Source: Gammaproteobacteria bacterium
Lineage (GTDB): Bacteria; Pseudomonadota; Gammaproteobacteria; Enterobacterales; Kangiellaceae
Direction: 5' to 3'
DNA length: 64,000 bases
Assembly: GCA_013373375.1 (NCBI GenBank)
Contig: JABXHY010000025.1
Location: forward strand, 1-64,000
Shown here: piece by piece, positions 6,102 to 60,717 of the stretch
Layout of the letters: each line of letters opens with the position of its first letter
How positions within the stretch are numbered: position 1 is the stretch's first letter
Program-made: the position numbers and the translations under genes
The notes under the pieces: model-generated
The model's input: only the letters and a program-made list of their open reading frames with translations
Told to the model about the DNA's origin: nothing
Database searches by the model: none

Positions 6102-6355
6102 AATTTCCGACTGAGTAATTAAATATTACTTTAATTTTAACGGAAAATAATACCTTTCGATATGGCAATTTCTACCAAGGTGCTAGTAACTTTCGAAGTC
6201 TGAATCATTAATCTGAGTGATTTATAACCACGGCTTTTGAGTTTTTACATTTAATAATATTTTGCAAAAGGACAAATTCAGTGAAAGACGATTCGTATTA
6301 TCGAAAAGCCAATCGCCGCTATACATCCTTTAATAGCTGATAAGTCATGGAATGC

Positions 6356-9300
6356 TTACGACGAGCTAATTTTAAACAACTCAGATAACTTAGTCAGGTC
6401 AACATGTCTGACAATTTCAGCGACATCTCTCATATCCAGTGTTTGGTAGACATCTTCTATGCCTAATACGGATGCACTTGAATCATTATCCAAATGACTA
6501 TCAATAAACTCCAACAATATCATTAACAGCTGTGGATCTTCGATTGAGTTTGTAAGGGTTGAAAAGGGTTTTACATACGATGCTTTTTCGATAACCAAAC
6601 CGTTGTTGTGAATTAATTGTTTAAATATTTGACCATAATCCAAAGTATTCTTTGCAGAGTTTTTATGATTAAAAGCCGCAACAATTTTTCTTGATTTCCA
6701 TTTGGCTACGCTAAGAAGCTGATAATCATCACCGACATCACTAATTGCTCGCACTGCATTTACTTCTGCTTGTTCTCTAGTTGTAAAAATAGCAAAACAA
6801 AAATTTGTATCTACGGATTCCTCATACCCGATTAGCTTGAAGAGTAATTCAAGCTGCTCCATTAAATATTTTTCGTTCGGCAATAGAGTATCCAGATCGA
6901 CTAGCGATACATCTCGTAATCGAGAGTATTGCTCAGCAATTAAATCATTGTGATCCTGCATTAGCTCAATTTTTTCTTCTACTGCACTTTCTACTTGCGT
7001 TTGAAACATATCATTTTGTGCCAGCCGCCTCGCTTGAATTCTAATCAGCAAAATCAACAAGAAGCAGAAAAACAAAGAATAAATTGAGTATGCCCACCAG
7101 GTTGACCAAGGAGCGGCTTCAACTCGGATTCTTAAATTAATTGACTCATCACTCCAAACACCATCATCGTTACTTCCCTTAACTTTTAACGTATATTCGC
7201 CAGCTGGGAGATTAGTAAATGTAGCGCGACTCCTATTTTTAAGCTGAATCCAATCATCATCCAAACCTTCTAACTTATACATATACTGATTCTTTTTTGG
7301 ATTCGCATAATCAAGTGCCGCAAATTCAAAAGCGACCAGATAATCTTTATGATTTAGTTCCAAACTCGTTAGTTTATGGACAGCACTTTTAAAGCTTGCT
7401 CGCTCATTTCCAATTAAAATACTGGTCAGGATAACTTCTGGTTTATGACTGTTTTGTTTGACTTCTGAAGGATAAAAAGCTGTAACACCGTTCAAGCCTC
7501 CAAAATATAATCGACCATCCTTTGCTCTTAATATTGCGCCTTGATTAAATTCGTTTTCATGTATTTCACCAGAAATATTAAAATGTTCAATATCTTTCAA
7601 GTCAGGAGAGATTCGAGATAGTCCTTTCACCGTACTCAGCCAAATGTTTCCGAGCTCATCTTCAACGACTCCATTGATAGTGCTACTAGTGAGTCCGTTT
7701 TCTGTGGTTAACCTAGTAAATTTTGCATCAAGATTTCTACGAACCATCGGTTCGTATATATTTAAGCCGTCACCTTGAGTACCGATCCACAACCTGCCCT
7801 GAGAGTCTAAAGTTAAAGATGTAATAATATTTCCAGAAATACTCGAACTGTCTTCTTTATCGTGCTTGAAATTGGTTACTTGCTCAGTGTTTTTGTCAAA
7901 ACGATAAAGCCCATCGCCGTCAGTGCCCACCCATATATAACCTTCTTCATCTTCAAGAATGCAGTATATGCTTTGGGTAAAGTCATATTTTCTGAATGAT
8001 TTATCTTCTGAAAAATACCGGTTTAAGCCACCTCTGAAAGTTGATACCCATAAGTTTCCATTGTAATCACGGAGTATATTGGTAACGCCATTGGCAGAAA
8101 TACTTTTGCTATCGTCAGGCTGATGCGTGAACTGCTCAAGTTTTTTTAATTGTTTTGAATAAAATTCGAGCCCTTGAGTAATCGAGCCGGACCAAACCGA
8201 TCCATTTTTATCAACATGCAAGGTCATCACACGTTTTGGTAACTGTTGTTTCGAATCGGATACTGGAAAAATAGCATCTGAGTTGGGATTGAGTAGGTCA
8301 ATACCAGTACCAAAAGTTCCAATTAATATCTGGTTATCAATCGTCTCTCCTAAGGAATAAACTGTATTATTACTTAAGCTTGATGGGTCTTCGGGAATAT
8401 TACGATAATGTTGAAACGTTTCAATCGTCGGGTCCCAAATATTTAAACCAGATAAAGTTCCAAACCACAAAACCCCACCTTTGTCTTTCATGGCAGAGAG
8501 TACACGGTTATGACTTAAGGAGAGCTTTTGTGATGGCTTGCTTGATATCCTTGAAAAAATATTAGAGTTTTCTTGATAAACATTAATACCACCATCAGTG
8601 GCAATCCATAATCTTTTCTGTTGGTCTTCTATAATTTCGTAGACTCTGTTACTCGAAATAGAGTTTTTGTCGTTCGCGTCAAAAGTAAATAAATCAAAAC
8701 GTTTTTCAATTTCAGAATATCGAGCAAGGCCGCCACCTCGTGTCCCAATCCAAATTCGTCCACTACTGTCTTCGAACACAGTTCTTATTTGGTTATGTTT
8801 TAACTGACCAGGTTCTGAACTCGAACTGTAATGAATAACTTCTCCAGTTTTATTTTGTAAGAAAAGCCCTTTACCATTAGTACCAAACCAAAAGCGATCT
8901 CTGCTGTCCTGAAAAATCACTCGAATATCGCTTTCATCAAGTTGACTATTGATTGAAAACGAATTAGCCGAAATATTATTGTTTTCAGTATTTTCAATTA
9001 AGAAAATACCGTTACCATCTGAGCCGAGCCAAAGACGATCATCGCGATCACGATAAATTTCATTAAACCTCGAAATTTCAACACCCTCTTTAACAACTTT
9101 TACAGTAGAGAAACTTTCCGAAGAGGGATTAAAAATACTAAGTCCATCGTGAGTAGCAATTAAAATTTGTCCAGAAGCATCTTCGGTGATTGCTCTGATT
9201 ACATCACTTGAGATTGAAAGGGGATCTGACGCTCTGTGTCGGAATATTTTAATTTCATTGCCATCGTATCGATTCAAGCCTTCTTGAGTACCGATCCAGA

Positions 9301-9463
9301 CAAAACCAACACTGTCTTGAAAAAGTATTTGAATTGTTTTCTGAGACAATCCGTCCGAAGTGCTCATTTGACGGAACTGAGTATTCTCCAAGCCCTTGGA
9401 AAATACAGCTACTGAAAATAGACAACACAAAATACTACAAAGTAAACTTAAAGGATTATTCAC
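6356..9463 (-). CDS. periplasmic two-component-type propeller sensor with degenerate GGDEF-like C-terminus
   Basis: Large membrane sensor of 1035 aa. A signal peptide (residues 1-22) is followed by about a dozen reg_prop repeats with the pattern DSxGxxWIGTxxGLxxYD to about residue 640. A Y_Y_Y domain comes next (YMYKLEGLDDDW, TNLPAGEYTLKVKGSN), then one membrane helix at about 792-814 (YSLFFCFLLILLIRI) and a coiled segment. The cytoplasmic part has no His-kinase boxes. Instead residues 850-870 read SLVDLDTLLPNEKYLMEQL, which resembles the entry of a GGDEF domain (DPLTGLPNRR-like), but no GGDEF motif follows. I read it as a catalytically dead GGDEF-like output. The ligand is unknown; in related proteins the propeller often senses polymers. 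It lies 60 bp behind an S8 protease on the same strand, separated by a terminator. Confidence 0.85.
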   Translation of the reverse strand: MNNPLSLLCSILCCLFSVAVFSKGLENTQFRQMSTSDGLSQKTIQILFQDSVGFVWIGTQEGLNRYDGNEIKIFRHRASDPLSISSDVIRAITEDASGQILIATHDGLSIFNPSSESFSTVKVVKEGVEISRFNEIYRDRDDRLWLGSDGNGIFLIENTENNNISANSFSINSQLDESDIRVIFQDSRDRFWFGTNGKGLFLQNKTGEVIHYSSSSEPGQLKHNQIRTVFEDSSGRIWIGTRGGGLARYSEIEKRFDLFTFDANDKNSISSNRVYEIIEDQQKRLWIATDGGINVYQENSNIFSRISSKPSQKLSLSHNRVLSAMKDKGGVLWFGTLSGLNIWDPTIETFQHYRNIPEDPSSLSNNTVYSLGETIDNQILIGTFGTGIDLLNPNSDAIFPVSDSKQQLPKRVMTLHVDKNGSVWSGSITQGLEFYSKQLKKLEQFTHQPDDSKSISANGVTNILRDYNGNLWVSTFRGGLNRYFSEDKSFRKYDFTQSIYCILEDEEGYIWVGTDGDGLYRFDKNTEQVTNFKHDKEDSSSISGNIITSLTLDSQGRLWIGTQGDGLNIYEPMVRRNLDAKFTRLTTENGLTSSTINGVVEDELGNIWLSTVKGLSRISPDLKDIEHFNISGEIHENEFNQGAILRAKDGRLYFGGLNGVTAFYPSEVKQNSHKPEVILTSILIGNERASFKSAVHKLTSLELNHKDYLVAFEFAALDYANPKKNQYMYKLEGLDDDWIQLKNRSRATFTNLPAGEYTLKVKGSNDDGVWSDESINLRIRVEAAPWSTWWAYSIYSLFFCFLLILLIRIQARRLAQNDMFQTQVESAVEEKIELMQDHNDLIAEQYSRLRDVSLVDLDTLLPNEKYLMEQLELLFKLIGYEESVDTNFCFAIFTTREQAEVNAVRAISDVGDDYQLLSVAKWKSRKIVAAFNHKNSAKNTLDYGQIFKQLIHNNGLVIEKASYVKPFSTLTNSIEDPQLLMILLEFIDSHLDNDSSASVLGIEDVYQTLDMRDVAEIVRHVDLTKLSELFKISSS

Positions 9464-9480
9464 TGGACGTTATCCTACAA

Positions 9481-9504
9481 AAAAGCCGTGTAACCACGGC
9501 TTTT
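9481..9504 (-). terminator. intrinsic terminator of the leftward S8 protease
   Basis: 10-bp stem AAAAGCCGTG / CACGGCTTTT with loop TAAC. Read leftward it ends in TTTTTTGT, 20 bp past the protease stop and 18 bp before the propeller gene start. It should separate the two genes transcriptionally. Confidence 0.8.
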
Positions 9505-9523
9505 ATCTCATTTGCTGGAAACT

Positions 9524-11269
9524 TTATTCTTGTTTTACCCAGATATTAACGGCTATGTTGGCGTCAGTCCATCCAATTGCGTCAGACCAACCATTCGCAT
9601 CGCTCCATCCGATTGCATCGCTCCATCCATTCGCATCGGTCCAACCGATTGAGTCACTCCATCCGTTTGCATCGCTCCAACCATTTGCATCAGACCAGCC
9701 ATTGGCGTCACTCCATCCATTCGCGTCACTCCAACCGTTTGCATCTTGCCAGGCCGACCAATTTTCCCACACATAACCTTGTTCAGTTGTCAGAGCTTGC
9801 GATTGCCAGACGACTTCATTATTTCCTCGAATGTAAAATTCGCCTGATTCGTTAACCATTGCGTTTCCAGCAAAATGTTGCTCACCGTTTAGGTCGGAAT
9901 CAATATTTAATCCTAGGTTTGCACAACCGAATGCATCACTGTACACCGCCGCAACAGCATCAACTTGCCCTGCCCCTTGTTGGAAAGGTGAATATGCCCA
10001 GGTACCGTCTTCGTTTCTTGCTGCTTTAGCAGTCGACATTAATCGGCACTTCACATCATCCGGCGACAGACCAGGATCTTGACTTAACATCAAAGCAACA
10101 ACACCAGTAACAACGCCTGCCGACTGTGACGTGCCGGACATCATGAAATATTTTCCACCGTCATGAAACTCAGGATGTTTTGAAGCCAACACTGTTTTGT
10201 CTTCCATCAATCCCATCAAATGTCCGCCTGGCGCAACCAAATCAGGCTTAACAAAACGCTCTATTGTGGGTCCGTTCGCCGAGAATTTGGCTAGACGGTC
10301 GTCGGAAAAATCATCAGGAGTGTAATTGTCGGTTACGGCACCAACGGTGATCACATAGGGAACATTGCCAGGAACGCCCACCCCAAAAGAGCCACCGCCA
10401 TTGTTACCAGCAGACGTAACCACCACAATTCCGGCTTGCCAAGCTTTCATAACAGCTTGATTCAGCGGATCGTCCCAGTAATAAGACTGGGGATTTGCAC
10501 TGAAAGAAAGGTTCAACACCCGAATGTTGTAAGAGTCTTTAAAATAAATAGCCCACTGTATGCCGCGAATAACATCGGCGTAAGAACCACCGCCCTGATC
10601 ATCAAATGCTTTAACACTGATCAATCTCGCATTCGGCGCTATCCCATAAAATCGACCTTTAGAATCGTATTCACTGTTGACCGCCACACTTGTAACGTGA
10701 GTTCCATGACCATTATTTTCATCATCATTCATCGATGTTTTATTCGTGATTGCATTATAGGTACCATAAACACGGTGCCTTCCATATGCGTCATGCCGTA
10801 TCCCCGATAAACTTTTAAATCCGGTATCCAAAACAACGACGGTAACACCATCTCCGAATATTCGCTGGTCATGTAATGGTTGAGCATTAGCCATTTGGGT
10901 TGCAGAGGCTTGTGAATAAGCAATTCGCTGCCCCCAAGCCAATCCACTCAAATTTACGGTTGAGTTTGGGATCACTCGTAGCCCACTCTCTTCCAATGAT
11001 TGTTTTTGTGGGCCTGAAAGGTTCGCTACTACCGAGTTTATTAACGATAATTCATGGGTGAGTTGAATCCCTCTAGAAGAAAGCTCGCTCTCGGCGTTAT
11101 CACCTTGGATGATAAAAGAGAGTGTTTCTTGTTGAGCTTTACTACTCAACTGAAGATTTTCACTTAATTGGCGAGCTTCGCCCGATTGGTTCTCTTCAAA
11201 GCCGAACGTTATCACTAAAGCAACAGCTGTCGCTGCAAGAAACAACGCTTTGACTACTAATTTCGACAT
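9524..11269 (-). CDS. secreted S8 (subtilisin-like) serine protease with C-terminal hexapeptide repeats
   Basis: Exported endopeptidase of 581 aa. A signal/anchor helix (residues 3-22) leads into a propeptide region to about 110. The subtilase domain carries the triad Asp148 (VVVLDTG), His188 (NNGHGTHV) and Ser381 (MMSGTSQSAG), plus the oxyanion Asn289 (SAGNN), so it should be active. After residue 440 there is a short beta-rich stretch. Ten tandem hexapeptides of the form (D/S)(A/S)(N/I)GW(S/T) follow at residues 509-568, then a short tail. Similar Trp-rich W-S/A-D tandem tails occur in other bacterial S8 proteases; their function is not settled. The divergent neighbour at 11591 is another S8 protease. 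Confidence 0.93.
   Translation of the reverse strand: MSKLVVKALFLAATAVALVITFGFEENQSGEARQLSENLQLSSKAQQETLSFIIQGDNAESELSSRGIQLTHELSLINSVVANLSGPQKQSLEESGLRVIPNSTVNLSGLAWGQRIAYSQASATQMANAQPLHDQRIFGDGVTVVVLDTGFKSLSGIRHDAYGRHRVYGTYNAITNKTSMNDDENNGHGTHVTSVAVNSEYDSKGRFYGIAPNARLISVKAFDDQGGGSYADVIRGIQWAIYFKDSYNIRVLNLSFSANPQSYYWDDPLNQAVMKAWQAGIVVVTSAGNNGGGSFGVGVPGNVPYVITVGAVTDNYTPDDFSDDRLAKFSANGPTIERFVKPDLVAPGGHLMGLMEDKTVLASKHPEFHDGGKYFMMSGTSQSAGVVTGVVALMLSQDPGLSPDDVKCRLMSTAKAARNEDGTWAYSPFQQGAGQVDAVAAVYSDAFGCANLGLNIDSDLNGEQHFAGNAMVNESGEFYIRGNNEVVWQSQALTTEQGYVWENWSAWQDANGWSDANGWSDANGWSDANGWSDANGWSDSIGWTDANGWSDAIGWSDANGWSDAIGWTDANIAVNIWVKQE
9566..9745 (-). repeat. 18-bp tandem repeat, ten units, coding for GWSDAN hexapeptides
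   Basis: About ten head-to-tail 18-bp units inside the S8 protease gene. Each encodes a variant of DANGWS (DSIGWT, DAIGWS and DAIGWT also occur). Third-position and some first-position differences between units show the array is not brand new. Because the period is divisible by three, alternative frames are also open here; these are not genes. Confidence 0.9.
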
Positions 11270-11590
11270 ATCCTACCCCGTTTTAGCTAAAGCATTTTTA
11301 TTAGAACTACTTTTTTTATAGCTTTAGTTAATAACTACTTACTTACTGATGCAGAGAATTCAATCTCAAACTTCAATATATTTAATTTCAATAGAAAATA
11401 CAAAGACTTTCCATAGTCCTTTGTTACCACAGGTCAAGGCAAGACTACTAGTTCGATCGTCTAATTTGTCGGTTACTGCACAAAAGTTGTCGGATTTCGA
11501 TTAATCACTAATAAAAAACAGATGCTAATAATGACCTTGCCAGATAGGACCAAAACATAAATAGGACCAAAACACGAGGAGCAGTGAAAA
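11270..11590. promoter_or_regulatory. 321-bp divergent control region between two S8 proteases
   Basis: Shared upstream region of the leftward (11269) and rightward (11591) S8 genes. It is AT-rich in its left half. The right half holds the paired GTCGG elements described separately (11466-11498). No ORF or RNA is apparent. Confidence 0.5.
11466..11498 (+). promoter_or_regulatory. paired GTCGG direct repeat (21-bp period), putative operator
   Basis: TTGTCGGTTAC at 11466 and TTGTCGGATTT at 11487, exactly 21 bp apart (two helical turns), about 100 bp before the S8 gene start. The same element with the same period occurs before the S8 gene at 16096. Direct repeats with about 21-bp spacing are the usual layout for AraC-type DNA-binding domains, and an AraC-output hybrid kinase is encoded between the two genes. 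Assignment to that kinase is inference. Confidence 0.5.
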
Positions 11591-12760
11591 ATGAAAACTA
11601 CAACAATAGCAGCAGCAGTAACTCTCGCTTTAACTACAGGTGTTAATGCTGATAATTCAAACCGACCAACAAACGAAGTATCTCCAGAACTGCAAAATAT
11701 TCACAACCGTTGCATCGTTCGACTAAATGATGAGATATCTAAATTTGACGTCACCGGAAAAGCTCGCGGAATGGTAGCCAGCGCTCAAGCAAGAGGCTTT
11801 TCAAATGCCAAGGCAGACCATATCTATCAACATTCAATAAAAGGCTTTTCAATCAATATGTCTTGCGCCAGTGCGCAACAGTCTTTTGGAGATGACATCG
11901 ATATTAAAAACATGTCTCCCGATGCCATTGTTTCCATTTCTGCACCACCTCCAGGCAAAGGACCTGGTAACGGCGGTGGAAGCACAAGCCAAACAACTCC
12001 GTGGAGCGTAACTCGAGTGGGCGGCCCAGTTGATGCTACTGGATATACAGCTTGGGTATTAGATACCGGTATTGACTTAGAGCACCCAGATTTAAACGTC
12101 GATGCCTCCAGAGGCTTTTCTGCTTTTACCAAAGGTAAAAATGCTTCTGTCGACGATGGCCAAGGTCATGGAACTCACGTTGCAGGAACAATTGCCGCGA
12201 TAAATAACAATATCGATGTTGTCGGTATCGCAGCCAACGCGACTGTCATTCCGGTGAAAGTTCTGGACAGCAGAGGATCGGGAAGTATTTCTGGCGTTAT
12301 CGCTGGTGTTGACTTTGTTGCTGCAAATGCATCACCTGGAGACTGTGCGAATATGAGTCTTGGTGGTGGTGCAAACTCTTCTTTAGACGATGCTGTTGAA
12401 GCTGCAGCACAAGCTTCTGGTGCTTACTTTGTTGTTGCCGCGGGTAACGATGGAGACAATGCTAATAATCACTCACCTGCTCGAGCGAACGGTAACCGAG
12501 TATTTACCATTTCGGCAACTGATATTAATGACAATATGCCAAGTTGGTCGAACTATGGTAACCCTCCAGTCGATTACGCAGCACCAGGCGTTAGCATCTT
12601 GTCGCTGAAAAATGGCGGCGGTACAACAACCATGTCCGGTACATCTATGGCTTCTCCTGCAGCGTGTGCAGTTATCATGCTGAGTAATGGTAACCCATCG
12701 ACGGATGGCACGGCCGGAAATGACCCAGATGGAAATCCAGATCGCATCGTGCACTTATAA
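11591..12760 (+). CDS. secreted S8 (subtilisin-like) serine protease, short form
   Basis: Exported endopeptidase, 389 aa. The signal peptide is residues 1-20 (ending GVNA). The propeptide/inhibitor-like region runs to about 120, and a Gly/Pro-rich linker (PPPGKGPGNGGG) precedes the catalytic domain. The triad is Asp158 (WVLDTGID), His193 (GHGTHVAGT) and Ser352 (SGTSMASPAA), with oxyanion Asn286 (AAGNDGD). All are intact. The protein ends soon after the Ser motif, with an Asp/Asn/Gly-rich tail, so it has no accessory C-terminal domain. GAGGAG lies just before the ATG. A paired GTCGG element lies about 100 bp upstream and a strong terminator follows at once. The next gene is the hybrid kinase. 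Confidence 0.95.
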   Translation: MKTTTIAAAVTLALTTGVNADNSNRPTNEVSPELQNIHNRCIVRLNDEISKFDVTGKARGMVASAQARGFSNAKADHIYQHSIKGFSINMSCASAQQSFGDDIDIKNMSPDAIVSISAPPPGKGPGNGGGSTSQTTPWSVTRVGGPVDATGYTAWVLDTGIDLEHPDLNVDASRGFSAFTKGKNASVDDGQGHGTHVAGTIAAINNNIDVVGIAANATVIPVKVLDSRGSGSISGVIAGVDFVAANASPGDCANMSLGGGANSSLDDAVEAAAQASGAYFVVAAGNDGDNANNHSPARANGNRVFTISATDINDNMPSWSNYGNPPVDYAAPGVSILSLKNGGGTTTMSGTSMASPAACAVIMLSNGNPSTDGTAGNDPDGNPDRIVHL

Positions 12761-12780
12761 TTGACGATCTGCTTCAACTT

Positions 12781-12810
12781 AAAGCCGGATAGTTTATCCG
12801 GCTTTTTTTT
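12781..12810 (+). terminator. intrinsic terminator of the S8 protease
   Basis: 10-bp stem AAAGCCGGAT / ATCCGGCTTT, loop AGTTT, followed by a T-run (eight T in total), 20 bp past the stop. Confidence 0.9.
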
Positions 12811-12850
12811 GTGTCCAATAGACACTAAACTTTAACGTTGACACCCAAAA

Positions 12851-15800
12851 ATGAGAAACATCTATACCACGATGAATCTAACTGAAAAAGTGCCCGTTCA
12901 TACAAAGCGGATTCAACTAATCATCGCGCTGGTTTTTAGCAGTTTGTTTCTACTCTATCTTTTGCCGATTATTCCAACTGAAAAGCTGGCATTTTTTTCA
13001 TATCACTTCGCTGACCTTATATTTTTAACATTAATACTGTCACTGATTGCATTACGTTTTTTGCGCAGCCAGAAACATGGCATAGATAAATTGTTCTGGA
13101 GTTTATTTGGCGGTGCCTTTCTGTCTTGGTGGTTATTAACACTGGTATTTAACATCGCCTGGCAAGATCTTTCATCGGCCACTCAAAACTTGGTCAGCGG
13201 TATCAGTTATTTTTTATTTTATGCTCTAATGATTGCCAGCGTTGAACTTAAAAGTCATCGTGCTGCTAATCAACTGTTAAGTTTACATAGCTCTCTCATA
13301 TGGCTTTCGACCTTATCTTTTGCACTTGGCGCTTTTATTTACCTGGTAATCATTCCAAGTACGACGGCGCAAGGAAGCGTACACAACTTTCCAACTACTT
13401 ATTTGTTTTACCTTTTAATGGACAGTTATTTAATGTTGCGTTGGGGCTATCTTGCTTACCAATGTCGTGTCGTTGACTGGAAAGCATTTGGCTTGATCGC
13501 ACTAGCCATGAGTAACTGGTTAATTGCCGATACAGTAGAGGCACTCAATTTATTTACTTCATGGAATCTATCAGGTGGGTCTTTTCTAGATTGGATCTGG
13601 TTTACACCCTACTTATGGATTGCATTAGCGATGACGCTACGATTGACCAATAGCGAGTCAGCAAGTTTTTCGAAACGTTTTTCCAGACTTAATTTATTGA
13701 ATAGTCCTTTAACATTTGTGGCGCTAACGCTGATGATTTACGCCATAACCAACAATAATATTTTATTTAAACCGATTGTTGGTAATACCCACCACGCTAT
13801 GTTTACCGGTTGGTTGGTATTAGGTCTTGTTTTAGCTATTACACAAATTGGTTTTTTGATTAAACAATCAGCGTCATTACGTTATCAACTCAAAGAAAGT
13901 CAATTTGCCACCGAATCTTTAAAGCAACAACTTGAACAACAGGCAAAAAAAACCGAAGCGCAGCGAGACTCTTACCGATCCATACTTGAGACAACCAGTA
14001 ATGCAATTTTTACTGTTGAAGAATCCGGAAAAATTTTAAGTGCAAACTCAGCGGCAACTCGATTGCTTGATTACTCAAATGCAGAGTTATTACATATGTC
14101 GATTCAAGATTTGATCGACTCTGAAGATGAGCTGGCATTATTTTTTAAATTTCAAAGTTATCGTCAAAAACTTGAACGACAAAATCGAGGACTCGAACTT
14201 GAGTCGGAATTTTTAAGCCAATCCGGTAATAGCGTGCTCGTTCATGTTACAGTTTCCAAAGGAAAGCCTGGCAGTGGAACACCTCTTGTCATTGCCCTTG
14301 CTGATATACGGGAGCAAAAACAAGCTGAAAAAGAAATCATGCGCATGAAAGATGAGTTCACCGCTAATATTTCGCATGAATTTCGAACCCCTTTAACCAT
14401 TATTAACGGCGTACTCGATAACCTTAGCAAGCAAACTCAAGATGCTGCGGCATTACAACAAATCGAAACTGCGAAAAATAATGGCCTACGCATGGTTCGA
14501 ATGGTTGAGCAACTCCTCGAGTTATCAAGATCTGGTCGCCATGCGATTACCGTTGCGCCGATGGATGCTGGTGCGGTTTGTCAGTTCGTCGCACAAAATT
14601 TTCGAGCAATCGCGCTTGAGAAAAATATTGAGTTTTATTGCGCTGACATCCCTTCCATTTGGGTTAAAGGCAACATACAGGCGTTTGAGAAAATCATCTT
14701 TAATCTTCTTTCAAATGCGTTCAAGTACACACCTTCAGGAGGACGAGTTGCTCTAAACTTTGCCAGTCATGATGGCGTTGCCCAGCTTGACGTAAGCGAT
14801 AATGGACCCGGAATCCCAGCTCAAGAGCAGGACAAAATATTTCAACGATTTTATCGTGCAGAAGGCACCAATAGTAAACAAATTCATGGTGTTGGGATCG
14901 GGCTGGCTTTGGTCAAGGAGCTTTGCCGCAGCATGGGCTGGCACATGACATTGAACTCTAACGAAGGTGCAGGTTCAACCTTCTCAGTAACCATGCAGCA
15001 AATCGACATTCCAGACAATTACGAGGCATTCACGCCAAAAATTAATCAACCCATCGAGCAGAATATAGAATCTGAGCTGGTGGATACAAAAGCCGAGCAG
15101 CAAAGTCTTAGCATTCAAAAATCAAAATATCTTGTATTGGTCATTGAAGATAATGTTGATATGCAAAGACACTTAAACGGAATAATCGCAGAACACCATC
15201 AGTGTCTGATCGCCTCTAACGGTGAAGAAGGCATCAAAATGGCGCTCGATTATTTGCCGGATATTATTGTTTCCGATGTAATGATGCCCGGGATTGATGG
15301 CTTTGAAACTCTAAAAATACTAAGACGTAATGAACTAACAGCGCACATTCCTGTACTCATGTTAACAGCAAGAAGTGATATCGAAAGTAAAATTGAAGGG
15401 CTAGAAGCCGAGGCAGACGATTATCTAACAAAACCCTTTGATGCGCGTGAGTTGCTGTTACGCTTAAAAAATCAAATTCAGTCCAGACTCAAGTTACAAC
15501 AGAGACTGCAAAGTCAGTGGCAAACTGAAAGCTCAGCTTCAGATTCCGGCACTAAGAAAATCGAAGACAAATTCCTGATTAAGCTTAACGAGTGTTTTGC
15601 TGAACATTACCAGGATAGCGAGCTCTCCATGGCAGTTCTGGCATCAAAATTAGCAATGAGTGAGCGCCAGCTACAACGAAAAGTCAAAGCTCTACTCGAC
15701 CTTAGCCCACTGGAAGCGCTTCGAAGCTTTCGAATTAATCAGTCAAAACAACTTCTCCGAGAAAAAGAACAGGTGGGAATTGTTGCTCAGAAGGTCGGTT

Positions 15801-15880
15801 TTTCCTCTCAATCACACTTTGGTCGACTGTTTAAAGAACAGGTCGGCATGACCCCAGGTGAATATCAAAAGCGAACCTAA
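12851..15880 (+). CDS. membrane hybrid histidine kinase / response regulator with AraC output domain
   Basis: One-protein phosphorelay of 1009 aa. About nine to ten membrane helices fill residues 20-345, then a coiled coil (350-375). A PAS domain follows at about 375-480 (YRSILETTSNAIFTV). HisKA carries the phospho-His motif NISHEFRTPL at about residue 505. HATPase_c shows NLLSNAFKYT, DNGPGI and GVGIGLALVKEL. REC is at about 755-870 (VLVIEDN, phospho-Asp in DIIVSDVMMPG, KPFDAREL). The AraC/HTH_18 domain forms the last 100 residues (LASKLAMSERQLQRKVK, AQKVGFSSQSHFGRLFKEQ, MTPGEYQK). All catalytic motifs are intact. It has no periplasmic sensor domain, so the signal is probably sensed in the membrane part. 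It lies between two S8 genes that share an operator-like element; local control is likely but inferred. ATG 12872 is an alternative start. Confidence 0.93.
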   Translation: MRNIYTTMNLTEKVPVHTKRIQLIIALVFSSLFLLYLLPIIPTEKLAFFSYHFADLIFLTLILSLIALRFLRSQKHGIDKLFWSLFGGAFLSWWLLTLVFNIAWQDLSSATQNLVSGISYFLFYALMIASVELKSHRAANQLLSLHSSLIWLSTLSFALGAFIYLVIIPSTTAQGSVHNFPTTYLFYLLMDSYLMLRWGYLAYQCRVVDWKAFGLIALAMSNWLIADTVEALNLFTSWNLSGGSFLDWIWFTPYLWIALAMTLRLTNSESASFSKRFSRLNLLNSPLTFVALTLMIYAITNNNILFKPIVGNTHHAMFTGWLVLGLVLAITQIGFLIKQSASLRYQLKESQFATESLKQQLEQQAKKTEAQRDSYRSILETTSNAIFTVEESGKILSANSAATRLLDYSNAELLHMSIQDLIDSEDELALFFKFQSYRQKLERQNRGLELESEFLSQSGNSVLVHVTVSKGKPGSGTPLVIALADIREQKQAEKEIMRMKDEFTANISHEFRTPLTIINGVLDNLSKQTQDAAALQQIETAKNNGLRMVRMVEQLLELSRSGRHAITVAPMDAGAVCQFVAQNFRAIALEKNIEFYCADIPSIWVKGNIQAFEKIIFNLLSNAFKYTPSGGRVALNFASHDGVAQLDVSDNGPGIPAQEQDKIFQRFYRAEGTNSKQIHGVGIGLALVKELCRSMGWHMTLNSNEGAGSTFSVTMQQIDIPDNYEAFTPKINQPIEQNIESELVDTKAEQQSLSIQKSKYLVLVIEDNVDMQRHLNGIIAEHHQCLIASNGEEGIKMALDYLPDIIVSDVMMPGIDGFETLKILRRNELTAHIPVLMLTARSDIESKIEGLEAEADDYLTKPFDARELLLRLKNQIQSRLKLQQRLQSQWQTESSASDSGTKKIEDKFLIKLNECFAEHYQDSELSMAVLASKLAMSERQLQRKVKALLDLSPLEALRSFRINQSKQLLREKEQVGIVAQKVGFSSQSHFGRLFKEQVGMTPGEYQKRT

Positions 15881-15890
15881 GTCACTGATT

Positions 15891-15943
15891 TTGTCACATT
15901 TATCTCAATCATGTCGGATTTAAGACATTATTCGTCGGATCTG
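15891..15943 (+). promoter_or_regulatory. GTCGG direct repeats (20/21-bp period), putative operator
   Basis: ATGTCGGATTT at 15911 and TCGTCGGATCT at 15932 are 21 bp apart, with a weaker third copy TTGTCACATTT at 15891, 20 bp earlier. This matches the pair before the S8 gene at 11591. It lies directly after the hybrid kinase stop and about 160 bp before the next S8 start. Confidence 0.5.
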
Positions 15944-16095
15944 GACTATCTCTAAAAGCGTCTTTTGGACAACTATCAATGCAGTTGTTTTCATATCCAA
16001 TAAAGATTGCAACACACTTGGGACAGAACGAGCAGGATAACCTGCCGCCACCAGGGACAGACACAGATAAACTGACACATCGGGAGAAGTATTCC

Positions 16096-17961
16096 ATGGT
16101 TTCAAAAATAAAAACTCTTTCAGCTGCTACAGTTCTTGCATTAACAGCCGGTACTGTAATGGCTGATGATAGCCGCTACATCATTCAAGTTGATAATGCG
16201 AAAAAAGGTGTAGTAAAAGCGTTAGCAAAAAAACTTGGCGCGGAAGTTAATGTTGATGCGAATGGTTTTTTCGCAGCAACCTTCGAAGGCAAATCGCTTG
16301 ATGAAGTTAAAGGGCTTTTAAATAACCCACACGTTAAATTTGTAGAAGCTGACTCTCGACGTGTTCCACTTGCTCTTTTCAATGATGACGCAGGCGACCC
16401 AACTCAGCAGCAACTTACGCCTTATGCGATTTATCAATCACAAGCAGACCAAGTATCTCTTCAATTAAACAATGCTAAAAAAGTATGTGTAATCGACTCT
16501 GGTATTGCTCGGGAGCAAGGCGAAACTGGCGGTTACAATGCTGACTTTGATTGGAGCGCAATCACTGGCACTAACGATTCTGGTACTGGCGACTGGTTCC
16601 GAGATGGTGGACCTCACGGTACTCACGTTGCAGGTACTATCGCAGCAGCTGACAATGGTTTTGGTGTAATCGGTATGGCGCCAGGCAATCCTCTACACAT
16701 CGTTAAAGTATTTAACGCAGCAGGCTGGGGTTACTCATCTGACTTAGCAAAAGCTGCTCAAGTATGTGCCGATAATGGCTCCAGCATCATCAGTATGAGT
16801 CTTGGTGGTGGTGGTGCAAACAGCACTGAAGAAAATGCGTTTAACAGTTTCACCGCAAATGGCGGTTTAGTATTAGCGGCAGCGGGTAACGATGGTAACA
16901 ACGTTCGTTCATACCCTGCAGGCTATAAATCGGTCATGATGATCGGTGCTAATGATTCTAACAACAACATTGCGAGCTTCTCTCAATTTCCATCGAATAC
17001 AAAAACCTCTGGTCGTGGTAAAAATGTTACCACTGAAACAGACGACGGCTTCGGTGTTGAAGTTACTGTAGGTGGTGTTGATACCCTTTCAACTTATCCT
17101 TCCGGTGGCGCTTCAATTGCATCAATGACAGCTGGAGGTGTTGGCTTCGCTGCATCTGCGATGGAAAATAATGGCGAAGCTTCTGGAAGTACCTACTTTA
17201 TGGGCACTGCAGAAGCAACCGACAGCAACGCTGCTGGTAAAATCTGTGTCATCGACCGCGGCGTGATTTCTTTCTACGACAAAGTAAACAACTGTGAGTC
17301 ATCAGGTGGTATTGGTGCAATTATCATCAATAATGAAGCAGGTATGTTGTACGGAACTCTTGGGACAACTAACGACACTACTATTCCAGCAGTTGGCGCA
17401 GCTCTTGAAGATCGCACAGCGCTTACTTCAGCTTCTACTGCTAGTGTGAAAGTTGGCGCATCGGATTACGGTTACATGAGTGGAACCTCAATGGCGACAC
17501 CAGGAGCTTCAGGTATAGCAGCTCTAGTATGGTCGAACTTCCCTACCTGTTCTGGAACAGAAATTCGCGAAGCAATGAAAGCAACAGCTGAAGATCAAGG
17601 TGCAGCGGGACGTGACGATTACTTTGGTTACGGCATCGTTAAAGCTAAAGCATTAGCAGACTACCTAACAGCAAACGGTTGTTCAGGCGGTGACAATGGC
17701 GGCGGTAATAATGGTGGTGGCACTGGTGGCGACTTAACAGCAGACGGTTCTCGCAGCAAAGGCGGACGCCAACTGGATGTTAATTGGACTGGTTTCAGCA
17801 GCAATAATGTTGATATCACCATCACTTGGACTGGCGGTACATTCAACGACACTACAGCGAACGACGGTTCAGAGTCTTACACTGGTGATAAGAACACAAG
17901 TTACACTGTGACCGTATGTGAAACAGGCACTTCAACTTGTGCATCAAGCTTCACTCTATAA
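16096..17961 (+). CDS. secreted S8 serine protease with PA-domain insert and C-terminal beta domain
   Basis: Exported endopeptidase, 621 aa from the ATG at 16096. That start has GGGAGAAG just upstream and opens a clean signal peptide (residues 1-23, TVMA/DDSR); the longer frame from 15979 would bury it. An I9-like propeptide spans residues 25-90 (RYIIQVDN, VKFVEADSRR). The triad is Asp134 (VCVIDSG), His174 (GPHGTHVAG) and Ser465 (MSGTSMATPG), with Asn265 (AAGNDGN). Between Asn and Ser lies a protease-associated (PA) domain at about 340-455 (GKICVIDRG, GAIIINNEAG). A poly-Gly/Asn linker near 570 leads to a roughly 55-residue beta-sandwich-like domain with a Cys pair (VCETGTSTC), possibly for substrate or surface binding. 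Terminator follows. Confidence 0.95.
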   Translation: MVSKIKTLSAATVLALTAGTVMADDSRYIIQVDNAKKGVVKALAKKLGAEVNVDANGFFAATFEGKSLDEVKGLLNNPHVKFVEADSRRVPLALFNDDAGDPTQQQLTPYAIYQSQADQVSLQLNNAKKVCVIDSGIAREQGETGGYNADFDWSAITGTNDSGTGDWFRDGGPHGTHVAGTIAAADNGFGVIGMAPGNPLHIVKVFNAAGWGYSSDLAKAAQVCADNGSSIISMSLGGGGANSTEENAFNSFTANGGLVLAAAGNDGNNVRSYPAGYKSVMMIGANDSNNNIASFSQFPSNTKTSGRGKNVTTETDDGFGVEVTVGGVDTLSTYPSGGASIASMTAGGVGFAASAMENNGEASGSTYFMGTAEATDSNAAGKICVIDRGVISFYDKVNNCESSGGIGAIIINNEAGMLYGTLGTTNDTTIPAVGAALEDRTALTSASTASVKVGASDYGYMSGTSMATPGASGIAALVWSNFPTCSGTEIREAMKATAEDQGAAGRDDYFGYGIVKAKALADYLTANGCSGGDNGGGNNGGGTGGDLTADGSRSKGGRQLDVNWTGFSSNNVDITITWTGGTFNDTTANDGSESYTGDKNTSYTVTVCETGTSTCASSFTL

Positions 17962-24859: not shown

Positions 24860-26149
24860 ATGACTGAACTTGAGCCTAGCGACATGACCCATTCCAACGA
24901 CTATTTCAGTTTCCCAATCACAAATGTATATGCCAAGGGTGGCTATACTCTCTCAATTTTTATTGGTAGCGAGGCCGCCAGTGCTAACCTGATTTTAGAT
25001 ACCGGGAGCAGTACGCTAGTAGTTCAGGCCGAAGACTATGACCTTGCCGCAGATGATCATTTAACACCGACGAGTTTAGCCCAGTCAGTCACTTATGGAA
25101 TCGGCGGCTGGTACGGCCCGGTAGTCAAAACCAAAGTTGCGCTAGTCACAGAAGACCACCTGGAGAATGTAAAGCTTGAGAGTACCCATGTTGCTGTAGC
25201 TGAAAAAACCAAAAACAAGAACTTTGCTCTTGCTGATGGCATCATTGGCCTAGCTTACTATGAACTAAATAAAGCTTACGATCTAACTTCTTATCTGGAA
25301 CATCATAAAGTCAATCCATCGGTGACTTATCCATGGTTCGCATGCGAAGAGAACCGAGATCGCTCTGTAACTGAATTCAAAAGCTTTCTGAAACAATACC
25401 CGAGACAACACTTAAAACCCTATTTCACTCAATTGACCGAACACAATGTGGTCGCCAATCAATTTGCTTTTTATATTCATCGCTCGAGTATATTTCAAAC
25501 CGAATCACAGAAAACAGCCGAACAACTTGAGCAAGAGCCTCTCAATCAAGGGATTTTTGTTATGGGTATGCCACGCCTTCGCACCGATTTATACGAAGGT
25601 TCCTTTTCTGTCGTCAAAGTTCTTGATGATAAATATTACAATGTCCACGTTGAGTCTTTACAAGTAGGAGACTGCGAACCTAGAAAAGCACCGCTGTTAA
25701 AAGAAATTAATCAGCGATATCGAAGTAACGGTATTGTCGACACCGGAGCTTCCGCGATCGTCTTACCCAAATGTTTGTTTGACCAATTACTCGAAGACCT
25801 GGCAAGTGTCGATCCCGAGTTTGACAAAATATTAGAACCCTACAAGACATTTGAATACGTAGAAGAAGGCGTGCCAATTGATCAAGTGGCCATTGAAAAG
25901 TGGCCAATCATCAAATTTAACTTGATGGGTTTTAACGACGAAACGGTAACCTTGGAATTAGCTCCAGAGCATTACTGGCAATTACACGCACCTGAACCTA
26001 ATCAGGCTTCCTTTCAGTTTATATTTTTAGAAAAGTGGCCTAATCAATGTATTTTAGGACTCCCTTTGCTAGTCCCTCATTACACAATATTCGACCGACG
26101 CGAATGCCAATTTGGCGGATTGTTTTTCGCAAGGAAATCTTCGGTTTAA
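24860..26149 (+). CDS. bacterial pepsin-like aspartic protease (A1 family)
   Basis: Two-lobe aspartic peptidase, 429 aa, uncommon in bacteria (shewasin-type). The first catalytic motif is Asp47-Thr-Gly-Ser (LILDTGSSTLVV). A flap Tyr79 lies in VTYGIGGWYGPV, as in pepsins. The second catalytic motif is Asp294-Thr-Gly-Ala (GIVDTGASAIVLP). The C-terminal signature is ILGLPLLVPHYTIFDR. Both Asp and the flap Tyr are present, so it should be active at acidic pH. There is no signal peptide and no obvious propeptide, so like the shewasins it may be cytoplasmic. ATG 24884 (MTHSND) is an alternative start. It lies 50 bp after asnC on the same strand; no functional link is evident. Confidence 0.92.
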   Translation: MTELEPSDMTHSNDYFSFPITNVYAKGGYTLSIFIGSEAASANLILDTGSSTLVVQAEDYDLAADDHLTPTSLAQSVTYGIGGWYGPVVKTKVALVTEDHLENVKLESTHVAVAEKTKNKNFALADGIIGLAYYELNKAYDLTSYLEHHKVNPSVTYPWFACEENRDRSVTEFKSFLKQYPRQHLKPYFTQLTEHNVVANQFAFYIHRSSIFQTESQKTAEQLEQEPLNQGIFVMGMPRLRTDLYEGSFSVVKVLDDKYYNVHVESLQVGDCEPRKAPLLKEINQRYRSNGIVDTGASAIVLPKCLFDQLLEDLASVDPEFDKILEPYKTFEYVEEGVPIDQVAIEKWPIIKFNLMGFNDETVTLELAPEHYWQLHAPEPNQASFQFIFLEKWPNQCILGLPLLVPHYTIFDRRECQFGGLFFARKSSV

Positions 26150-56711: not shown

Positions 56712-56737
56712 AAAAATGGCGCCCTAGCGCCATTTTT
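56712..56737 (-). terminator. intrinsic terminator of dnaJ
   Basis: GC-rich stem AAATGGCGC / GCGCCATTT with a 4-nt loop, then TTTTT leftward. It starts at the dnaJ stop codon. Confidence 0.85.
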
Positions 56738-57872
56738 ATTTAGTCATTCCATCCCAAAAGTTTTTCACGCCATCAAACCAGTTTTTCGACTTAGGATTGT
56801 GTCGACTGTTGCCATTTTTCATCGAGTCATCAAGCTGTCTTAACAAATCTTTCTGCTCCTTGCTTAAATTTACCGGCGTTTCTACAACAACTCGACAATA
56901 CAAATCACCCGACGGCCCTCCGCGCATTGGAGCAACACCTTTACCACGCAATCTAAATAGCTTTCCTGATTGAGATTCCGCAGGAACTTTTAAGTTAACC
57001 CTCGAATCAAGTGTTGGCACTTCAAGCTCTCCACCCAAACATGCGGTGGTGTAACTAATCGGAACTTCACAGTAAAGATCATTACCATCGCGAGTAAAAA
57101 TCGAATGTTCTTTAACATGAACCTGAACATAAAGATCCCCAGGTTGTGTACCCGGTCCACCCGCTTCACCTTCACCAGATAAACGAATCCGATCGCCAGT
57201 ATCGACGCCTGGTGGAATTTTTACTGACAAAGTTTTTTCTTTACGAACACGCCCTTGACCATGACATGTACCACAAGGATCTTTGATCATAGTGCCTTGA
57301 CCATGACATTTAGGACAGGTCTGCTGCACTGAGAAAAACCCTTGTTGCATTCTTACTTGGCCTGCACCACCACACATATCACAACTTGTAGGAGAGGTTC
57401 CTTTTTTGGCACCGCTTCCGCTACAAGTTTCGCACGAAACATAAGTAGGAACATGAATCTTAGCTTGTGTACCGTGTACCGCTTCTTCTAGTGATAGCTC
57501 TAGGTTATAACGTAAATCGGATCCTCGTCTCGCTCGTTGGCCACCACCGTGTCCACCTCGAGCACCAAATATATCGCCAAATACATCACCGAAAATATCA
57601 CTGAAGCTAGCACCACCTGCGCCACCACCAAAACCACCTTGCGACGGATCAACACCCGCATGCCCGTATTGATCATAAGCCTGGCGTTTTTCAGGGCTCG
57701 ACAATATTTCGAATGCTTCTTTAGCTTCTTTAAATTTATCTTCAGACTCTTTAGAGTCAGGATTACGATCGGGGTGATGCTTCATCGCAAGTCGTCGATA
57801 AGCTTTTTTGATCTCTTGCTCGTTGGCTGACTTATCAATCCCAAGAACTTCGTAATAGTCGCGTTTTGCCAT
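56736..57872 (-). CDS. dnaJ: chaperone protein DnaJ
   Basis: Hsp40 co-chaperone for DnaK, 378 aa from ATG 57872 ([11 protein letters not shown]). The longer frame would start inside the dnaK-dnaJ hairpin. J domain with HPD (MKHHPDRN), Gly/Phe-rich region, four CxxCxGxG zinc repeats ([32 protein letters not shown]) and the C-terminal substrate domain. Complete type I DnaJ. Confidence 0.97.
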
Positions 57873-57909
57873 GCTTGTCTTGCCTACTTTATCAATTCTT
57901 ACAGACAAA

Positions 57910-57933
57910 GACGCGGACAAAGGTGTCCGCGTC
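57910..57933 (-). terminator. strong hairpin between dnaK and dnaJ
   Basis: 10-bp GC-rich stem GACGCGGACA / TGTCCGCGTC, 4-nt loop, with a weak T tail leftward. It may lower dnaJ expression relative to dnaK or stabilise the dnaK mRNA end. Confidence 0.65.
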
Positions 57934-57957
57934 CAAGTAACTCATGAAAATCTTGAA

Positions 57958-59889
57958 TTACTTTTTCTTGTCATCAACTTCTTCAAATTCAGCATCAACA
58001 ACATTGTCATCTGACTTTTGCTCGCCGCCAGTGTCACCTGCACCACCTTCAGCTGCTTGAGCTTGCGCTTGTGCATTTGCGTAAAGTCGTTCAGCCATTT
58101 TTGCTGACGCTTGAGAAAGCGCTTCTGTTTTTGCTTCGATAGCGTCTTTGTCCTGACCTTTTAAAGCTTCTTCAAGATCTTTGATAGCAGCTTCAATAGA
58201 CTCTTTTTCACCGTCTTCCAACTCGACACTCTCGTCGCTCAAGCTTTTCTTAGTCGCATGAACTAAGCCATCAGCTTTATTCCGTACTTCGATAAGTTCT
58301 TGGAACTTTTTATCTTCGTCAGCATGAGCTTCTGCGTCTTTTACCATTTTATCGACTTCTTCATCCGATAAACCAGAAGATGCTTTGATGACTATCGACT
58401 GTTCTTTTCCAGTTGCTTTATCTTTTGCCGAAACATTTAAGATACCATTTGCGTCAATATCGAAAGAAACTTCAATTTGAGGTACGCCTCTTGGTGCCGG
58501 AGGAATATCTTGTAAATCAAATTTACCCAACGATTTATTTTGCGCAGCTTGCTTACGCTCACCTTGAAGTACATGTACCGTTACCGCGGTTTGATTGTCT
58601 TCTGCAGTTGAGAAGGTTTGTGATGCTTTTGTTGGGATTGTTGTATTCTTTTCGATTAAGTTCGTCATAACACCACCCATTGTCTCAATACCAAGAGATA
58701 ATGGTGTTACATCAAGTAACAAGACATCTTTAACATCACCGGATAATACTGCACCTTGAATCGCTGCACCCATCGCCACTGCTTCATCAGGGTTTACGTC
58801 TTTACGAGCTTCTTTACCAAAAAAGTCACCAACGGTTGACTGTACTTTTGGCATACGTGTTTGGCCACCCACCAAGATAACATCATCAATGTCAGAAACA
58901 TTTAGACCGGCATCTTTCAGTGCCATTTTTACTGGGTCAAGAGTGCGCTCGACTAAATCTTCAACCAATGACTCAAGTTTAGTACGCGTTAATTTAATGT
59001 TTAAATGCTTCGGACCAGTTGCATCAGCTGTAATGTATGGAAGATTTACATCTGTTTGTTGACTTGACGACAACTCGATTTTTGCTTTTTCAGCGGCTTC
59101 TTTTAATCGCTGTAATGCAAGTGCATCGTTATGTAAGTCGATACCAGTATCTTTCTTAAATTCAGCGGCAAGATACTCAATAACTTTCAAATCAAAGTCT
59201 TCACCACCAAGGAATGTATCACCATTGGTCGAAAGCACTTCAAAAGTGTGCTCACCTTCAACTTCAGCAATTTCAATGATCGAAATATCAAAAGTACCAC
59301 CACCTAAGTCGTATACCGCAATGGTGCGATCGCCTTTTGCTTTATCCATTCCGTAAGCAAGCGCTGCCGCAGTTGGCTCATTGATGATTCGTTTAACTTC
59401 TAAGCCTGCAATTCGACCCGCATCTTTTGTCGCTTGGCGTTGAGAGTCGTTAAAGTAAGCAGGAACGGTGATAACGGCCTCAGTCACTTTTTCGCCAAGA
59501 AAGTCTTCCGCTGTTTTTTTCATTTTTTTCAAAACTTCAGCAGAAATTTGTGGTGCGGCTTTTTTCTCACCTTTTACTTGAACCCAAGCATCACCGTTGT
59601 CGGCTTTAACGATTTTGTAAGGCACCATTTTAATGTCTTTTTGCACGACATCATCTTCAAACCGACGTCCAATTAATCGTTTTACTGCAAACAGAGTATT
59701 TTCAGGGTTTGTAACAGCTTGGCGTTTCGCAGATTGACCTACTAAAATTTCACCGTCTTCTGTGAAGGCAACAATAGAAGGAGTGGTTCGCGCACCTTCG
59801 CTGTTCTCGATAACACGAGTGTCTTTACCGTCCAATACGGCAACACACGAGTTGGTCGTTCCCAAGTCGATTCCAATAATTTTACCCAT
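57958..59889 (-). CDS. dnaK: chaperone protein DnaK
   Basis: Hsp70 chaperone, 643 aa. Starts [18 protein letters not shown]; signatures [13 protein letters not shown] and [14 protein letters not shown]. The C-terminal lid ends in the usual acidic tail ([16 protein letters not shown]). Preceded by a probable heat-shock promoter. Confidence 0.98.
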
Positions 59890-59978
59890 GGTACATCTCC
59901 AATATTAAATCTTTAACTTTTAAAAATTTTGCTAACAAGAGTTACGCTCGATAACCCTTCTAAATTCATGCCTTTTAA

Positions 59979-60006
59979 ATTTGGGGCTTTTTCAACCAAT
60001 TCAACC
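59979..60006 (-). promoter_or_regulatory. dnaK: candidate sigma-32 promoter of dnaK
   Basis: On the minus strand GGTTGAAT (59999-60006) and CCCCAAAT (59979-59986) are 12 bp apart, close to the consensus CTTGAAA / CCCCATNT. It lies about 90 bp before dnaK. The -35 lies in a tandem 10-bp duplication (TTGGTTGAAT-type). Confidence 0.5.
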
Positions 60007-60033
60007 AATCAATTGAATTTTTTCTTAACTGAA

Positions 60034-60636
60034 CTAAACCTTTTCATCAATATTGGCAGGTTTACCTTTGTTAACCACAACCCGTGCCGGTCGAATAACG
60101 CGACCATTAAGTAGATATCCTTTTTGGAAAACGGCAATCACCGCGTTGGCATCAAATTCGGGGTTTTCTTGCATGGACATAGCTTCATGTCTTTCTGGAT
60201 TGAAAGCCTCACCAATCGGATCAAGCTGCTCGATATTCTTTTTTGCCAAAGTGTCGGTAAAAATTTTCAACGTTAGCTCCATGCCTTCTTTTAAAGCTTT
60301 TGCTTCATCCGTTTCGGCTGGCTGAGCTAAGCCTTGCTCTAAGCTATCGATAATCGGCAGCAGTGATTCTACAAAACCTTCGAGTGCGTATTTATGAGCA
60401 TTTTGTACATCACGCTCTGCTCGACGGCGGACGTTTTCGGTTTCCGCGTGAGCTCTTAAAACCGCTTCTTTTGACTCTTGAACCGTAGCTTCCAACTGCT
60501 GAATTTGCTCTAGTAGCGCACTAGTTTCTGCAGCAAGCTCGTTTGATTCTATTGTTTGGTCCTCGGTTGGAGCTTGATTGATTTCAGCTTCAACGGCTTC
60601 ATCTTGAGGTTGTTTTTCCGATGATTGGTCTGACAT
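60034..60636 (-). CDS. grpE: nucleotide exchange factor GrpE
   Basis: Nucleotide exchange factor for DnaK, 200 aa from ATG 60636; GGGG lies 7 nt upstream. Acidic N-terminus, long coiled coil (LEATVQESKEAVLRAHAETENVRRRAERD), then the beta domain ENPEFDANAVIAVFQKGYLLNGRVIRPARVVV. Upstream of dnaK. Confidence 0.97.
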   Translation of the reverse strand: MSDQSSEKQPQDEAVEAEINQAPTEDQTIESNELAAETSALLEQIQQLEATVQESKEAVLRAHAETENVRRRAERDVQNAHKYALEGFVESLLPIIDSLEQGLAQPAETDEAKALKEGMELTLKIFTDTLAKKNIEQLDPIGEAFNPERHEAMSMQENPEFDANAVIAVFQKGYLLNGRVIRPARVVVNKGKPANIDEKV

Positions 60637-60717
60637 TACACTACCCCGCATCTATCAGGTCAGATAAATATTCCCCACAAAAATGGGTGTTTTTCCAAGT
60701 TTTTCGGTATATGGGGG

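Follow-up and report, generated by a model that had tools for sequence, protein, structure and literature searches.

The window, the whole 64,000-nucleotide stretch analysed here, belongs to a 4.53 Mb genome of the genus Pleionea and carries a gene cluster at 6356-17961. On the minus strand lie the genes for a RegProp/Y_Y_Y protein and for a subtilase (S8C), followed divergently, on the plus strand, by the genes for a second subtilase (S8A), a hybrid sensor kinase and a third subtilase (S8B) (Table 1). The kinase consists of a multi-transmembrane (TM) N-terminus (residues 1-345) followed by the Pfam domains PAS, HisKA, HATPase_c, REC and AraC-type HTH_18 (the last at residues 930-1008, E = 2.7e-21), such that kinase core, receiver and DNA-binding output reside in one polypeptide, as in AraC-output hybrid systems in the broad sense. 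Pfam detects no Reg_prop repeats in the kinase, which consequently lacks the fused periplasmic propeller sensor of the classical systems.

Table 1. Genes and predicted control elements of the cluster, in window positions
Feature	Position	Strand	Basis
RegProp/Y_Y_Y periplasmic propeller protein with one TM helix	6356..9463	-	Pfam
S8C subtilase	9524..11269	-	Peptidase_S8 E 3.7e-51; hydrophobic N-terminal segment, residues 4-22
Operator A, two 21-bp units	11466..11505	+	R1 31.3 bits, E 7.5e-7 in own genome; alignments A1/A3
Operator A, TTGTCG boxes	11466-11471, 11487-11492
Operator A, second boxes	11479-11484, 11500-11505
Putative extended -10 (TGC TAATAA), S8A promoter	11523..11531	+	Modal distance from operator
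S8A secreted subtilase, 389 aa, predicted target	11591..12760	+	Peptidase_S8 E 1e-36
Intrinsic-terminator-like hairpin, S8A/kinase gap	12781..12805	+	11 pairs, T run
Hybrid sensor kinase, 1009 aa	12851..15880	+	Pfam domains; AlphaFold N-terminus
Operator B, two 21-bp units	15911..15950	+	R1 30.4 bits, E 1.4e-6
Operator B, boxes	15911-15916, 15932-15937
Operator B, second boxes	15924-15929, 15945-15950
Putative -10 (TATCAA), S8B promoter, weaker than that of S8A	15974..15979	+	Column 68
S8B secreted subtilase with PA domain, 621 aa, predicted target	16096..17961	+	Peptidase_S8 E 2.1e-37, PA E 8.3e-13

As originally predicted, the AraC-domain protein lies between two S8 protease genes, and no second AraC domain was found among the Pfam-scanned window proteins (a set that left out a 1211-aa ORF at 53075 and some small ORFs); within the conserved cluster this domain is the sole DNA-binding one. 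Its recognition helices, [ED]RQxQRK and GF[ST]SQ[ST][YH]FGRxFK[ED], are kept in all kinase orthologues, and recognition helix 2 differs from that of paralogous hybrid kinases in the same genome, which encodes at least six further hybrid kinases with AraC output. AlphaFold models the kinase N-terminus as a multi-TM bundle with a mean pLDDT of 80. Foldseek returned weak rhodopsin/GPCR-like matches for this bundle (best E 0.05), and VIA-align of residues 42-266 (12974-13648) gave a Z of 12.4 with an rmsd of 4.2 over 219 residues, values in the range usual for helical bundles; no lysine that would support retinal binding occurs among its invariant columns. One relative, G003 (L046), carries a kinase orthologue split into two frames (6277-8076 and 8184-9299) by a frameshift or a sequencing error, with both operators kept.

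Two GTCGG copies in a 21-bp register precede S8A and again S8B, with exact matches to GTCGG-N16-GTCGG at 11468-11493 and 15913-15938, both on the plus strand. The original prediction had described each as a 21-bp-spaced pair of TTGTCGG heptamers. Upstream of S8A the heptamer is indeed perfect in both copies, whereas upstream of S8B the spacing holds and the heptamer does not (the copies read ATGTCGG and TCGTCGG), so that the exact core common to both pairs is only GTCGG. Two embellishments of the element fell away: a proposed GGATTT extension is not conserved, and a supposed weaker third copy (TTGTCAC at 15891), 20 bp upstream, is matched at five or more of six positions in just one of 38 sites, leading us to reject it as a chance, non-conserved match. 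With these intergenic regions modelled as an order-2 Markov chain, a 21-bp-spaced pair is expected with P = 0.0006 per 250-bp stretch. The bare 10-base pattern showed no genome-wide enrichment (four matches versus four for a reversed control); because it is too short to discriminate, we used a 46-column profile in its place. With this model of the full footprint, exactly two sites with E < 1e-5 were found in 4.53 Mb, namely Operators A and B, and the pair is hence not randomly placed in the genome. Apart from these two operators, none belonging to S8C itself was found on either strand.

The gene cluster is kept in relatives, where the same element stands before both S8A and S8B, in line with the expectation that the pair be conserved. 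S8A orthologues are preceded by a site in six genomes (G002, G003, G004, G013, G006 and G016), and in G022, which lacks S8A, one element stands before the kinase gene itself. The 16 cluster sites align without gaps (alignment A1) and define a 42-bp footprint of two 21-bp units, each of the form TTGTCG-N7-AC(C/T)A(A/T), with TTGTCG-N15-TTGTCG-N8-CTAT as the core of the element. Compared with itself, the profile is most similar at a shift of exactly 21 bp (0.255, versus at most 0.082 at any other lag). The element has the operator layout of AraC-output hybrid systems in the broad sense, a pair of direct repeats spaced by about 21 bp ahead of the target genes. Downstream of the site, the promoters favour one distance for an extended -10: the best hexamer starts at column 65, the mode, in 13 of 39 promoters and at columns 63-65 in 23 of 39, and none of 500 shuffles reached the observed column score. 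Counted back from column 65, a canonical 17-bp spacer puts the predicted -35 at columns 42-47, where it overlaps columns 39-44, the second box of the proximal unit; a class II activator of the araI1-araI2 type would be expected to sit in this way. In E. coli, the araI1-araI2 half-sites are spaced by 21 bp and overlap the -35. Almost no information is common to the promoters apart from the site and the -10.

To define candidate targets, a profile trained on the cluster sites only (R1) was run on the genome of the window and on 39 others of the family. Nothing convincing besides the two sites emerged in the window's genome; the third-ranked match there (C52:74547, E 0.04 with R1 and 0.001 with the refined profile R2) lies antisense within a 925-aa ORF and was taken as chance. 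The relatives yielded 17 further sites at E <= 0.02, of which 16 lie 39-270 bp upstream of co-directional genes for secreted proteases (P ~2e-20 against an assumed 5% background of secreted-protease genes). These proteases belong to the S8, M35, S1 and metzincin-like families. They include M35 aspzincins in G011 and G016 (by Pfam) and in G023 (assigned through the similarity of a truncated N-terminus), an S1 protease in G022 related to the alkaline serine protease AL20 (PDB 3cp7, E 4e-10), and a metzincin-like protein in G006 that carries QEIGHVFGLGH. Profile R2, built from 32 sites, added one more M35 protein in G006 and another in G179, the latter genome also giving a thermolysin-type M4 protease; R2 sites appeared in two other families of bacteria as well. 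Two moderate sites, L105 (G003:C1:741664) and L109 (G009:C44:145032), have no recognised protease behind them, the latter preceding a probable lipoprotein with a Big_5 domain.

On this basis, the predicted targets are S8A and S8B only in the genome of the window, and further S8, M35, M4, S1 and metzincin-like proteases in its relatives. The original proposal of a self-contained sensor-to-protease circuit is thus apt for this genome and too narrow for several relatives, where the regulon of secreted proteases is wider. With secreted proteases of at least five unrelated families preceded by the site, the element very probably marks a previously undescribed protease-control circuit.

We next compared the distribution of sites with that of the kinase across 395 genomes of the order, 18 with the kinase (counting G011, in which the gene lies on two contigs) and 377 without it. 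At E <= 5e-4, a threshold chosen after the gap was seen, R2 sites occurred in 13 genomes, all of them kinase-bearing (13/18 versus 0/377; Fisher 1e-20, a value that is partly circular, as 9 of the 13 site genomes had supplied cluster training sites), and the anticipated association of the pair with the kinase was thereby recovered. Outside the training family, sites were detected in three of eight kinase genomes versus none of ~349 others (P 7e-6). These three genomes (G158, G167 and G179) were found through their sites first and then shown to encode a full-length kinase (35-37% identity) with RegProp, S8C and S8B as neighbours, as in the window; R1 alone also picks up the G158 site (L142, E 2.4e-6). 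An Operator B-type site is kept upstream of S8B in other families too. Weaker sites stand at the expected place in G144 (E 0.001) and in G191 (E 0.088, 147 bp upstream of S8B), and three further kinase genomes (G078, G195 and G258) have neither a good site nor an S8B gene beside the kinase.

Conversely, S8B orthologues of genus g5 (54-70% identity), a genus without a full-length kinase orthologue, have no site, indicating that the site follows the kinase and not the protease. Neither this kinase nor the site was found in G001, of the same genus, or in G010, of the same family, even though G001 has many other HTCSs. Counting against this pattern, G005 and G023 have a site and no detected kinase orthologue, both genomes being only 73-75% complete. 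Matches in six kinase-less genomes of the order (G328, G084, G136, G204, G259 and G365; E 6e-4 to 9e-3) number roughly what chance would give over 395 genomes, and none of them precedes a recognised protease; of the matches in G001, the one looked at closely (L292) lies downstream of a gene and has no protease behind it.

S8C tracks the kinase without exception: at E < 1e-130 it was found in 18/18 kinase genomes and in 0/377 others. Similarly, the RegProp gene adjoins the kinase or S8C in every complete kinase cluster read. Its product combines a propeller and Y_Y_Y with a single TM helix and a cytoplasmic region. This co-occurrence sets kinase, S8C and RegProp apart as a conserved core, with S8A, S8B and the remaining proteases as predicted targets. 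The two S8 proteases and the kinase were rightly assigned to the circuit at the outset, and the obligate partners S8C and the propeller protein were missing from it. The cytoplasmic C-terminus of RegProp is a degenerate GGDEF, recognised by Pfam in orthologues only (L045, L289 and L290). RegProp would be a propeller sensor with a probably inactive cyclase output that adjoins a kinase, and is a probable sensory partner of that kinase.

Taken together, these sequence comparisons make it highly likely that the hybrid kinase encoded between the two proteases has the paired element as its operator. The element could instead be bound by another, unlinked AraC-type or HTCS regulator that co-occurs with the cluster, the kinase having different targets. 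The additional AraC-output hybrid kinases of the genome leave room for this reading, as does a remote site/S8 pair in G006 (L104, G006:C23, 5479-5524) that lies downstream of a different HTCS. However, the kinase is the only DNA-binding protein of the cluster, its paralogues differ in recognition helix 2, the site is missing along with the kinase in G001 and G010 despite the many HTCSs of the former, and sites reappear along with the kinase in two other families, such that we regard a second regulator as unlikely. The HTCS at L104 has different recognition helices, and cross-talk with the remote site is possible.

Two further readings would dispense with an activator site altogether. The boxes might be -35/-10-like elements of a core promoter for an alternative sigma factor, which would account for their constant spacing and orientation relative to the gene; yet the halves are one 21-bp unit repeated rather than two different hexamers, and the extended -10 at a preferred distance downstream leaves the element upstream of it and at the -35 region, rendering this reading very improbable. 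We give slightly less credence still to the idea that the shared element is left over from duplication of a protease gene with its promoter and has no regulatory tie to the kinase. S8A, S8B and most remote targets are indeed S8 paralogues, but the M35, M4, S1 and metzincin-like targets share no homology with S8, and the presence of the site before such unrelated families is something that promoter duplication cannot explain, which largely refutes the idea. Moreover, duplicated promoters would be at odds with the scarcity of common information beyond site and -10, and with the kinase-less genomes in which S8B orthologues have no site.

If the element is the operator of the kinase, the following mechanism can be proposed. 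The membrane kinase, probably together with S8C and RegProp/Y_Y_Y, would sense a cue related to external protein, autophosphorylate at HisKA and hand the phosphate on to the REC domain within the same protein. A pair of AraC domains would then occupy the two 21-bp units next to each other, along one side of the helix at the -35 region, and recruit RNA polymerase, thereby activating rather than repressing transcription of secreted-protease genes. We infer that the trio of kinase, S8C and RegProp forms the sensor. More tentatively, the circuit may be self-tuning, with the activity of S8C or its peptide products as the signal and the kinase, membrane-anchored S8C and RegProp with its degenerate GGDEF as the sensory unit, a scenario that we consider conceivable but rather doubtful. 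Were it true, a protease would belong to the very sensor that turns on a regulon of secreted proteases from many families, and the perfect co-occurrence of kinase and S8C makes such protease-assisted sensing directly testable.

For 16 Bacteroides HTCSs, the predicted motifs are direct repeats spaced by 21 bp on average, an arrangement attributed to dimers that bind one face of the DNA (Ravcheev et al. 2013, PMC3878776). The system described here resembles these HTCSs in uniting kinase, receiver and AraC domain in one protein, in the ~21-bp direct repeats before its targets, and in its self-contained locus of sensor and secreted hydrolases. It differs from them in its gammaproteobacterial host, in targeting secreted proteases and not glycan-utilisation genes, in having an S8 protease (S8C) as obligate partner, and in its multi-TM N-terminus with PAS, RegProp/Y_Y_Y being a separate neighbour here and a fused periplasmic module there. 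As for E. coli AraC at araI1-araI2 (PMC4760080), there are two direct-repeat half-sites with the promoter-proximal one at the -35 region, suggesting that RNA polymerase may be recruited by the proximal subunit in the same manner. Unlike E. coli AraC, which binds arabinose itself and also represses by looping, the AraC domain here serves a phosphorelay kinase as its output, and a distal loop site of the E. coli kind was not found. The AraC/XylS-type HTCS of Cellvibrio japonicus (PMC10766802) is likewise a gammaproteobacterial hybrid with AraC-type output that serves secreted polymer-degrading enzymes, but these are xylan/arabinan enzymes under periplasmic sugar sensing, with no protease regulon. 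Kangiella, of the same family as the window's genome, shares an abundance of extracellular S8 proteases and a proteolytic way of life, and the study in question describes these proteases and not their regulation (PMC6000758). Among the papers searched, none described a hybrid-kinase/AraC protease regulon for this bacterial group. The system therefore fits the broad definition of an HTCS while lacking its classical fused propeller, and appears dedicated to secreted proteases; its regulon, multi-TM sensor and obligate partners are new.

When marine bacteria break down protein, they carry out a major step in the turnover of carbon and nitrogen, and how decisions to secrete proteases are made is poorly known. 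A candidate regulator, its operator sequence and a target list are now concrete for the Pleionea/Kangiellaceae group and for two or more other families, predicting which S8, M35, M4 and S1 genes are co-regulated. The HTCS logic of 21-bp direct repeats, which in Bacteroides serves glycan use, would thereby extend to secreted proteolysis in gammaproteobacteria.

Some minor observations concern the wider surroundings. Weak second sites of opposite orientation were seen at 13498-13536 (+) of L289 in G167 and at 8200-8238 (-) of L291 in G158; they stand before divergent S8 genes that adjoin S8B, which suggests two operators between divergent proteases. Elsewhere in the window, 56736-61749 holds an hrcA-grpE-dnaK-dnaJ cluster, and 24860-26149 encodes a pepsin-like aspartyl protease (Asp, PF00026), uncommon in bacteria, adjoining a gene for an AsnC-type regulator.
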